Below are positions 19,767 to 24,112 of a stretch of 39,286 nucleotides of DNA, one piece after another. A program made the translations under genes and the position numbers. The DNA is from Clostridia bacterium (GTDB lineage: Bacteria > Bacillota > Peptococcia > DRI-13 > SV3-B141). The notes under the pieces were generated by a model. That model searched no databases. It was not told the DNA's origin and worked only from the letters and a program-made list of their open reading frames with translations. Within the stretch, counting starts at the first letter, position 1. Each line of letters begins with the position of its first letter. The DNA lies in assembly GCA_018433015.1 (NCBI GenBank), contig JAHDSB010000050.1, positions 1 to 39,286 on the forward strand. The letters are read 5' to 3'.

Positions 19767-20681
19767 TTATTGATAATTTTTATTAGTATTTGTAACGCCG
19801 GCTTGCTGCCCTATCTGCTTCAAGCTGGAAGTTGTTCCAGCCAATTGTTGTTGAGAACTTTGATATACGCTGGGGTCCATAGTTGAAATATCAGATAGGG
19901 AAGAAGTTGTTCCCATAGAAGTCTTTCCCACGTTGCTAGCAGCGCCACTTATACTACCAGATGTTGAACCCAGAGCTCCTGAGGAAACTCCGGCTTGTTG
20001 ACCGATTTGCTGTAAAGAAGGGCTGCCTTTTCCTAATTGATTTTGCGAAGCCAAATAGGTATCGGCATTCATTGAGGCAATATCCGATAAAGGAGATTGG
20101 GCTCTAGCTTGGAAACCCTGACCTCCTGCCTGGTACTGTTGGCTACCCATCTGTGTTCCATATTGTTGAGCACCCATTTGAGTCCCGTATTGCTGACCAC
20201 CCATTTGGGCTCCATACTGCTGTCCACCCATGGTGGAGCCATATTGTTGTCCGCCTTGCATAGAGGCACCAGCGCCGTAATTTTGTGGAGCACCTGCAAA
20301 CTGCATGGCATTCTGATATGTATCAGGACTCATAGTTGCTTGGTTAAATAAAGCGTTGGATTGTTGTGGATATCCTTGTCCTGCCATCATTCCCATATTG
20401 GCTCCACCGGTGCCGTAATTTGCTGTTTGTCCATATCCGTATTGTCCTGTCATACCGGTCATATAAGTGGGACTTGGAGAGTACATTTGTTGACCGCTTA
20501 TATTTTGTAGATTTGAGAAGCACTCCTGACTAATTTGTTGAATTCTTTGAAGTTGTTGAGCAGCATAGGAACTTTCTTGTGCCATTTGTTGTACCCGTTG
20601 TTGAGATTGCTGCATTTGATTTGCTAACTGCTGTATAGCGCTGAGTTTTTGTTGAACCTGTTGAATTTGATTACTTAACAT
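19767..20681 (-). CDS. Gln/Gly/Tyr-rich repeat protein with N-terminal coiled coil, function unknown
   Basis: I do not recognise a named family for this 304-residue protein. Residues 1-65 are a Gln-rich amphipathic helix (QQVQQKLSAIQQLANQMQQS, heptad-like). Residues 66-140 are Gly/Tyr/Met-rich. Residues 143-187 are five 9-residue repeats of the type GGQQYGxxM. The C-terminal part has two 35-residue imperfect repeats (197-231, 260-295) with the pattern SLSDI-x2-M-x4-Y-x2-SQ-x2-L...SL-x-QIGQQAGV; a partial third copy of the M-x4-Y piece is at 117 (MSPDTYQNA). One Cys (54), no signal peptide or transmembrane helix. ATG at 20681 follows GGAGGTTAATTA. Composition resembles self-assembling coat or prion-like proteins; a spore-surface role is only a guess. 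Confidence 0.8.
   Translation of the reverse strand: MLSNQIQQVQQKLSAIQQLANQMQQSQQRVQQMAQESSYAAQQLQRIQQISQECFSNLQNISGQQMYSPSPTYMTGMTGQYGYGQTANYGTGGANMGMMAGQGYPQQSNALFNQATMSPDTYQNAMQFAGAPQNYGAGASMQGGQQYGSTMGGQQYGAQMGGQQYGTQMGAQQYGTQMGSQQYQAGGQGFQARAQSPLSDIASMNADTYLASQNQLGKGSPSLQQIGQQAGVSSGALGSTSGSISGAASNVGKTSMGTTSSLSDISTMDPSVYQSSQQQLAGTTSSLKQIGQQAGVTNTNKNYQ
20121..20255 (-). repeat. Five 27-bp tandem coding repeats
   Basis: Within the Gln-rich gene, five in-frame copies of a 27-base unit encode GGQQYGSTM, GGQQYGAQM, GGQQYGTQM, GAQQYGTQM and a diverged GSQQYQAGG. Copy number could vary between strains by slippage. Confidence 0.85.
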
Positions 20682-21506: not shown

Positions 21507-23549
21507 TTATTTCTCGTTATTTTTAGTAGTTGCCGTTTCAATTATGGTTTTAGCAACCTGTTGAGGTACATCTTCATAATGTGAAAATTCCATTGAGAAA
21601 CTACCGCGACCTTGGGTGATGGATTTTAAATCAATAGCATAACGATACATTTCAGCTAGGGGAACATGGGCTTTTACTACTTGCCATTTATCTTGGGGTT
21701 CCATTCCTAACACACGACCACGTTTGCTATTTAAGTCGCTAATGATATCACCCATATATTGATCAGGCACTTTTATTTCAACGCTCATATAAGGCTCCAT
21801 TAGAACCGGATTAGCCTTTTCTATACCTTTCCTAAAGCACATACTAGCAGCGATCTTAAAAGACATTTCCGAAGAATCTACATCATGATAAGATCCATCA
21901 TAAAGAGTAACTTTAACATTTGTCACTGGATAACCTGCTAAGATTCCTTCCTGCATTGCTTCGCGTACACCTTTTTCTACAGCAGGATGGTAATTCTTGG
22001 GAACAGCTCCACCAAATATGGTTTCATCGAATTCAAACTCATTATCTTTTAGAGGCTCGAATCTCAGCTTAACATGACCATATTGTCCATGACCACCCGA
22101 TTGTTTTTTATGTTTATATTCATATTCCGCCGTTCCTCTGATTGTTTCACGGTAAGGTACTGTAGGGGTCTTGGTAGTAACTTCTACACCAAATTTTCTC
22201 TGCAATCTTTCCATAATAATATCCAGATGCTGTTCACCCATTCCTGTAAGAATGGTTTCTTTCGTTTCAGTATTTTTTTCCAGTCTTAAGGTGGGATCTT
22301 CATCTAACAATCTATTTAAAGCGTTGCCCACTTTATCTTCATCATTTCTTGATTTTGCTTGAACAGCTACAGAGTAAGTAGGATTCGGGAAGATAACACC
22401 TTCTTCAGCAGTAGTCTTGCCCTTAATACCTAAGGTATCACCCGTAGTAGTAGCTGCTAATTTAGCAATAGCAAAGATATCCCCCGGCTGGGCTTCCGTA
22501 ACATTATTTTGGCTTTTACCTCGCATAACTAGCAGAGGGCCGTAGCGTTCATCTTTATCTTTATTAACATTATGAACTGTGGTATCGCTCTTCATAACGC
22601 CTTTAAGAACACGGATAAAACTCAATTTTCCTACAAAAGGATCAGCTAATGTTTTAAAAACAAGGGCCGAGAGGGGCTCTTTATTAAGTTCTTCATTTTC
22701 AGCATCAACAACTTCCAAAGGAGACGGTAACATATTAATAACTGCGTTAGTTAAAAGTTGTACACCTATGTTTTTAAGGGCAGATCCACAATATACCGGA
22801 ACGACTTTAGCATTTTTCACACTTGCTCTGATGCCTTTATACATTTCTTCATCTGTCAAAGGTTCGCCTTCTAAATATTTCATTAGCAGATCGTCGTCCC
22901 CTTCGGCAGCAGCTTCCATTAGAGCTTCTCTATACTGTTCTACCTCGTCTTTTAGCTCTTCCGGTATCTCTTCTTCAATAACATCCTTGCCCTTGAATTT
23001 ATAAGCTTTTTCTTTCAGAATATGGACAACACCTGAAAAATTTTCTTCACTACCAATAGGTAAGGTTATAGGCACTACCTTTTTGCCAAAACGCTGTTGT
23101 AAATCATCAAGGGCTCTGTTAAAATTAGCATTTTCCCTGTCTAACTTATTGATAAAAATGATTCTTGGCATTCCCGCTTCTTCTGCTACATCCCAGTGTA
23201 CTTCTGTTTGTACTTCTACGCCAGCTACTCCACAAACAACTAATACCATTCCATCTACTGCACGCAATGCACTCTTGACTTCTCCAATAAAATCCGCATA
23301 ACCTGGTGTATCCAGAATGTTGATCTTATAATCCCGCCATTCTACGGGAGCAAGAGTTGTACTTACCGTTACCTTCCTTTTGATCTCCTCTGGCAAGTAA
23401 TCTGTCGTGGTTGTACCATCATCAACTTTGCCTAAACGGTTAGTATGTCCTGCATTATATAAGATGGCTTCAGTAAGAGAAGTTTTCCCAGCACCTCCAT
23501 GAGCTAAAATACCCACGTTTCTGAGTTTATTACTTGAGTATACTTGCAA
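21507..23549 (-). CDS. Elongation factor G-like GTPase of the EF-G-2 group
   Basis: The 680-residue protein has the five-domain EF-G layout but belongs to the EF-G-2 branch. The P-loop is AHGGAGKTSL (residues 16-25; canonical EF-G has AHIDAGKTT), switch I is GTTTTDYLPEE, and G3 is DTPGYADF, with Tyr where canonical EF-G has the catalytic His (DTPGH). G4 is NKLD. Domain IV is present (KQSGGHGQYGHVKLRFEPL; YPVTNVKVTLYDGSYHDVDS). Thermus EF-G-2 has the same Tyr replacement, so this is a family trait. The cellular role of EF-G-2 is unsettled. TTG at 23549 (GGAGG upstream) fits the family N-terminus QVYSSNKLRN; the upstream in-frame TTG at 23585 only translates the ribosome site region. Confidence 0.92.
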   Translation of the reverse strand: MQVYSSNKLRNVGILAHGGAGKTSLTEAILYNAGHTNRLGKVDDGTTTTDYLPEEIKRKVTVSTTLAPVEWRDYKINILDTPGYADFIGEVKSALRAVDGMVLVVCGVAGVEVQTEVHWDVAEEAGMPRIIFINKLDRENANFNRALDDLQQRFGKKVVPITLPIGSEENFSGVVHILKEKAYKFKGKDVIEEEIPEELKDEVEQYREALMEAAAEGDDDLLMKYLEGEPLTDEEMYKGIRASVKNAKVVPVYCGSALKNIGVQLLTNAVINMLPSPLEVVDAENEELNKEPLSALVFKTLADPFVGKLSFIRVLKGVMKSDTTVHNVNKDKDERYGPLLVMRGKSQNNVTEAQPGDIFAIAKLAATTTGDTLGIKGKTTAEEGVIFPNPTYSVAVQAKSRNDEDKVGNALNRLLDEDPTLRLEKNTETKETILTGMGEQHLDIIMERLQRKFGVEVTTKTPTVPYRETIRGTAEYEYKHKKQSGGHGQYGHVKLRFEPLKDNEFEFDETIFGGAVPKNYHPAVEKGVREAMQEGILAGYPVTNVKVTLYDGSYHDVDSSEMSFKIAASMCFRKGIEKANPVLMEPYMSVEIKVPDQYMGDIISDLNSKRGRVLGMEPQDKWQVVKAHVPLAEMYRYAIDLKSITQGRGSFSMEFSHYEDVPQQVAKTIIETATTKNNEK

Positions 23550-23699
23550 TACAAGCCCCTCCTTTTTTGGAAGTATTTTTTTCAACGTTTGCCAGCGGAA
23601 TAAGACAAAACGTATTGATGCTTATGTATTTATATTAATCATCGAATAAAAAAAATCCTGCTTTTTGTTAACGATAATTTAACACTAATTTTACGTAAA
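23550..23699. other. Upstream region of the EF-G-2 gene
   Basis: AT-rich sequence between the EF-G-2 start and the repeat array. The ribosome site is at its left edge. A promoter for EF-G-2 on the minus strand must lie here or inside the array; I see only weak candidates such as TTAACA followed by a T-rich spacer. Confidence 0.4.
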
Positions 23700-24112
23700 G
23701 TGAAACTTCCCTCAGAGGAAGTCTTTTTTATTTCCTCTGATGGTTAGCTGAACCAATCAGGGAGTTACTGTCTGTTCTCTTTGATGCCCTTTCAAACATA
23801 TTACAGACAGTTATTGCGTGGTACAGTGAAACTTCCTTCAGAGGAAGTCTTTTTTTATTTCCTCTGATGGTTAGCTGAACCAATCAGGGAGTTACTGTCT
23901 GTTCTCTTTGATGCTCTTTCAAACATATTACAGACAGTTATTGCGTGGTACAGTGAAACTTCCTTCAGAGGAAGTCTTTTTTATTTCCTCTGATGGTTAG
24001 TTGAACCAATCGGGATGTTAGCGTCCGTTGCCACAACTATCACTTAATTTTTACGGACGCTTTCAACGCGGTACAGTGAAACTTCCTTCAGAGGGAGTCT
24101 TTTTTTATTTCT
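23700..24112 (+). repeat. Tandem array of a structured 123-127 bp element (three full copies and one partial)
   Basis: Copies begin with GTGAAACTTCC at 23700, 23826, 23953 and 24076. On the plus strand each full unit has three parts. H1 is a 7-bp hairpin ACTTCC(Y)-TCAG-AGGAAGT followed by a T run (23705-23729, 23831-23857, 23958-23982; copy 4 at 24081-24107 has a G-T pair). H2 is CTGAT-GGTT/AACCAATCAG (23737-23760, 23864-23887, 23990-24013). H3 is a 9-bp stem: ACTGTCTGT/ACAGACAGT in copies 1 and 2 (23767-23811, 23894-23938) but AGCGTCCGT/ACGGACGCT in copy 3 (24020-24061). Three pairs differ and all are compensated, while the loops are unrelated. Copies 1 and 2 are nearly identical. H1 followed by T runs suggests plus-strand transcription with termination. 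No coding frame fits. I do not recognise the family. Confidence 0.93.

Follow-up and report, generated by a model that had tools for sequence, protein, structure and literature searches.

The tandem array at positions 23695-24111 of the window, the 39,286-nucleotide stretch of Clostridia bacterium DNA analysed here (contig JAHDSB010000050.1, assembly GCA_018433015.1), is very probably a cluster of copies of a non-autonomous, MITE-like mobile element, of the same kind as bcr1 and BOX repeats and mobilised in trans by an enzyme. The array consists of three complete units of about 127 nt and an incomplete fourth, arranged head-to-tail; Tandem Repeats Finder reported 23695-24020 with a period of 127 and 96% matches. 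Each unit is built around two hairpins, P1 and P2, the second of which contains the nine-pair H3 stem. The features are as follows:

23695-24111, + strand, whole tandem array, three complete units and an incomplete fourth (Tandem Repeats Finder, blastn, covariance model)
23695-23825, + strand, unit 1, covariance-model positions 1-134 (covariance-model match)
23821-23952, + strand, unit 2 (full-length covariance-model match)
23948-24075, + strand, unit 3, with the other H3 subfamily (full-length covariance-model match)
24071-24111, + strand, incomplete unit 4, limited to the pentamer and the 5' arm and loop of P1 (sequence, blastn)
23700-23753, + strand, hairpin P1 of unit 1 (sequence; pairs of alignment A3)
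23705-23730, + strand, terminator-like hairpin and T-run inside P1 of unit 1 (terminator search)
23756-23822, + strand, hairpin P2 of unit 1, comprising H3 and its extended base (covariation alignment)
23767-23775, + strand, H3 left arm of copy 1, ACTGTCTGT (sequence)
23803-23811, + strand, H3 right arm of copy 1, ACAGACAGT (sequence)
23894-23902, + strand, H3 left arm of copy 2, ACTGTCTGT (sequence)
23930-23938, + strand, H3 right arm of copy 2, ACAGACAGT (sequence)
24020-24028, + strand, H3 left arm of copy 3, AGCGTCCGT (sequence)
24053-24061, + strand, H3 right arm of copy 3, ACGGACGCT (sequence)

The array is flanked by two divergently oriented genes, which their translations suggest to be an EF-G-like gene (21507-23585, minus strand) and a SpoVB/MurJ-like gene (from 24244, plus strand). 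No plausible gene runs across it, in agreement with a preliminary description that had called it non-coding. Unit 1 is bounded by the pentamer GTAAA on the left and by GTACA, common to units 1 and 2, on the right. Its P1 has the form GTGAAAC..CCTCAG/CTGATGG..AGCTGAAC, and a tandem G.A/A.G mismatch (GA/GA) close to the base of this hairpin is conserved. The terminator-like hairpin recurs at 23831, 23958 and 24081, so that all window units carry one on the + strand, and the region holds five such hairpins where 0.4 are expected. Units 1, 2 and 3 fold more stably than shuffled sequences (z of -4.3, -4.3 and -5.1), and comparison of the units with Rfam gave no match at the gathering score or, with a relaxed threshold, at a meaningful E-value. 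Elsewhere in the window, at 20145-20252, a 27-bp in-frame tandem repeat in the minus-strand ORF 19767-20681 encodes a QQYG-rich part of its 304-aa product.

The preliminary description had centred on H3, reporting that copy 3 departs from copies 1 and 2 at both partners of pairs 2, 3 and 7, and had argued that such double changes are hard to explain without selection for pairing. The stems and the three double changes are as it described. Since copies 1 and 2 share 99% identity, the comparison within the array is in effect one copy against one. The stem type of copy 3 recurs at C153, an independent locus in this genome, with near versions, AGCGTACGT/ACGTACGCT, at C49 and C135, indicating that the pair changes are older than the array. 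The contrast between copies 1/2 and copy 3 is one of subfamilies, which also exist at other places in the genome, and does not represent compensation inside the array. Across 74 homologous copies, 90.3% of cells formed standard pairs, compared with 29.9-45.8% in slid controls, and 249 cells were double-changed, compared with 28-60 in slid and 88 in shuffled controls (0/500). On a tree computed with the H3 columns left out, about 21 changes of Watson-Crick type fell on the nine H3 pairs. Together, these data indicate that base pairing is maintained. In some homologues (C114c, C135a and C136/C148) H3 is partly mispaired; C114c is a hybrid with mismatched H3 arms.

Double changes alone do not prove selection for RNA pairing, because a DNA hairpin formed during transposition, or template-switch correction of a quasipalindrome, yields the same signal. 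In alignment A3 (columns 79-88 with 150-159), the window's genome has ACTGTCCGT..ACGGACAGT where most Bacillales copies have ACGGGCAGT..ACTGCCCGT, the two H3 arms having changed places. A one-step hairpin inversion could produce this swap, so that selection is not the sole possible source of the pair changes. That the paired changes in H3 arose altogether by such DNA mechanisms (quasipalindrome correction or arm-to-arm inversion) and not by pairing selection is consistent with this exchange and with the existence of hybrids such as C114c; however, pairing has been kept across 74 diverse copies through the many H3 changes on the tree, and correction alone leaves the near-invariant sequence of the P1 foot unexplained. 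We therefore consider a purely DNA-level origin of the changes possible but somewhat unlikely. It is compatible with the MITE-like reading, since it concerns only how the changes arose.

The units belong to a family with a well-defined anatomy. A typical Bacillales copy is about 155 nt long and consists of ATAAA, hairpin P1, hairpin P2 (equivalent to H3) and a second ATAAA, the pentamer being TTTAT on the opposite strand. The P1 consensus is GTGAAACTT-CCATCAG..CTGATGG-TTAGTTGAAC, and that of P2/H3 is ATCGG..ACGGGCAGT..ACTGCCCGT..GGGAT. The foot of P1, GTGAAACTT/TTAGTTGAAC, is near-invariant and includes the tandem GA/GA mismatch, whereas the tip of P1 is variable. Both ends are ATAAA in nearly all of 81 extracted copies, a fraction biased upwards because extraction demanded part of the motif. 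Adjacent units in arrays have one pentamer in common, as seen from overlapping covariance-model matches, and the same arrangement, with its shared pentamer, is seen in Peribacillus huizhouensis and in genome G196. Some long variants contain additional hairpin modules, placed either between the two hairpins or in the loop of P1. Two variants of about 490 nt (L049:1891-2382 and L056:1763-2248) have 4-5 tandem hairpin modules of about 55 nt (CACGCGGAGCCTGATTGA...) separating P1 from P2, plus a further module within the loop of P1, a modularity reminiscent of BOX elements. At G000:C160:22642-23119 (L020), four tandem units lie inside an operon between genes read as pyrF and pyrE, with the stop codon of pyrF falling within the first unit.

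The family is dispersed and abundant. A single unit used as a blastn query gave 28 matches in its own genome, spread over many contigs and often in tandem, and the covariance model gave 53 (E<=0.1). Blastn of 40 genomes in a search of relatives found a match in four, including the window's own and one with 14 matches, indicating a patchy distribution. Among the matches listed for species-representative genomes, the conserved core is widespread in Bacillales and present in some Clostridia; other element-bearing genomes, including Bacillales, hold from 13 to at least 150 copies. Within the window's phylum, the element was present in 24 of 299 sampled genomes and 18 of 215 genera. The exact core was absent from viral contigs, and a search of the open literature with core sequences gave only three hits, all tomato papers and all through one string.

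Comparison of Cytobacillus citreus with a 95-96% identical relative provided two clean empty sites, each with one pentamer where the filled site has two; both are from Cytobacillus, the genome collection containing no close relative of the window's own lineage. The first (L144) has a single pentamer, GATAA, that is one base off, and the second (L101) has a single exact TTTAT. For the first, the joined flanks of the C. citreus copy gave a continuous match to the relative at 96%. The presence of the same site with and without the element, with two pentamers and one, respectively, indicates that the element inserts, precisely and with duplication of a short target. At two further loci, the element is present in both genomes. 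At one other, the site occupied by the element in C. citreus (L076) holds a different repeat in the relative: a palindromic sequence, GCGCAAGCGCC...GGTAGGCGC, at about 1660-1800 of L275, which suggests an insertion hot spot common to both repeats. None of 111 full copies lies inside an ORF, and their gene context appears random. Copies between co-directional genes have the same orientation as the genes in 25 cases and the opposite orientation in 25. The insertion polymorphism, random context and lack of orientation bias are the behaviour of a DNA-level mobile repeat and not of an RNA made from one strand.

These observations bear directly on the proposal of the preliminary description that the array is a new structured RNA or regulatory element. 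A dedicated RNA or cis-regulatory element would be transcribed, and its fold would act on neighbouring genes, possibly via the terminator-like P1 hairpins. The significant folding of the units, the covariation and the terminator-like hairpins on the + strand of every window unit are all consistent with this, as is the frequent location within UTRs of bcr1-3 repeats, which are of similar kind (PMC3446304). The terminator-like form of P1 is, however, particular to the window's units and is not retained in the family's other copies, and the array itself sits between divergent genes. Given, in addition, the very high copy number, the insertion polymorphism and the absence of strand bias or preferred gene context, we consider a dedicated RNA very improbable. 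If the array affects its EF-G-like and SpoVB-like neighbours at all, it would do so incidentally. The conserved P1 foot could alternatively be an RNA motif.

The element is short, non-coding, dispersed and multicopy, as expected of a MITE-like repeat. Terminal inverted repeats matching an autonomous partner, the mark of a classical MITE, were not found: the ends consist of the ATAAA pentamer in direct orientation and two hairpins that differ from each other, and no partner was found, so we classify the family as a MITE-like hairpin repeat of Bacillota and not as a classical MITE. An autonomous copy with an internal ORF was rejected as a candidate, since 117 8-kb loci yielded no extended form of the element with an ORF inside it; the inserted material proved to be either non-coding modules or partial copies that are unrelated. 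We propose that a trans-acting enzyme would recognise the hairpins, together with the conserved bases of the P1 foot, and insert the element at TTTAT; recognition of the hairpins would keep the stems while allowing the loops to drift. Because each copy ends in a pentamer that may itself serve as a target or recombination site, insertion of new copies at terminal pentamers, or recombination between pentamers, would build head-to-tail arrays with a common pentamer. The window junctions GTAAA and GTACA are decayed pentamers, suggesting that this array is old and inactive.

We know of no enzyme that moves bcr1-like elements. A more specific form of the mobile-element explanation places the repeat among miniature IS200/IS605- or RAYT-type elements: a Y1 HUH transposase would recognise the hairpins, cleave at TTTAT and move the element as single-stranded DNA. 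The fixed T-rich pentamer at the insertion site, the subterminal hairpins and the precise empty sites would fit such an enzyme, and 10 of the 11 element-bearing genomes tested contain Y1 genes. By contrast, domain PF01797 (Y1_Tnp) is absent from two carriers, the window's genome and Rummeliibacillus sp. POC4, and where Y1 genes are present they are not clearly flanked by intact copies of the element. Moreover, the hairpins of the element begin directly at the pentamer, unlike the layout of IS608, in which the cleavage sites are spaced from the hairpins. With neither consistent presence in hosts nor linkage to the element, a Y1 partner is unsupported, and we regard this form of the explanation as distinctly unlikely. 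Rather unlikely, too, is a broader proposal, that of a phylum-wide two-hairpin family with TTTAT-specific insertion unlike that of known transposon families, extra modules at two fixed places, and hairpins read by the enzyme, possibly as RNA or single-stranded DNA.

Among described repeats, bcr1 (group A, bcr1-bcr3) of the Bacillus cereus group is a non-coding interspersed repeat of about 150 bp that folds into hairpins, is MITE-like and associated with a TTTAT motif described as flanking, and has no known transposase (PMC6542083, PMC3446304, PMC3733652, PMC2267715). The family in the window resembles it in size, lack of coding capacity, hairpins, MITE-like character and flanking TTTAT, but spans Bacillales and Clostridia, whereas reports confine bcr1 to the B. 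cereus group. By description, which is the basis of the comparison, the two appear similar in kind; we do not claim membership, because the covariance model found no match in 12 genomes of the family expected (identity unconfirmed) to hold the B. cereus group. A pattern search for the bcr1 comparison in 12 genomes gave matches at chance level, blastn of the element matched no B. cereus-group plasmid, and no bcr1-like repeat was recovered from 176 kb of one genome of the expected family. BOX elements of Streptococcus pneumoniae, described as parasitic, non-autonomous and highly folded, have two end parts that enclose hairpin modules, which vary and are sometimes in tandem (PMC3049150). The long variants L049 and L056, with repeated hairpin modules between P1 and P2, are BOX-like in this respect; by description, the family differs from BOX in ending in an ATAAA pentamer and in repeating whole units, not only inner modules. 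It also resembles REP/BIME sequences with their RAYT proteins, which are hairpin-based, dispersed, often clustered and moved in trans, but has no Y1 partner in the genomes examined. REPs are palindromes of 20-40 bp. Resemblance to integron attC sites and T-boxes was dropped in view of the ATAAA-bounded dispersed unit; no defining motif of either was seen.

What appeared to be a new RNA is one cluster of a large and seemingly undescribed repeat family, with more than 100 copies in some genomes. It serves as a warning that covariation in tandem arrays can stem from mobile hairpin DNA. Since close genomes differ at individual sites, the family offers a direct means of searching for the enzyme behind bcr1-like elements. 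A stretch of the Bacillota element, 63 bp long and 85% identical to the consensus, lies at 221561-221623 of the Klebsiella grimontii plasmid pNY3A (CP079755.1; L244), near genes for a CPBP protease and a restriction endonuclease, and is either a trace of horizontal transfer or contamination.
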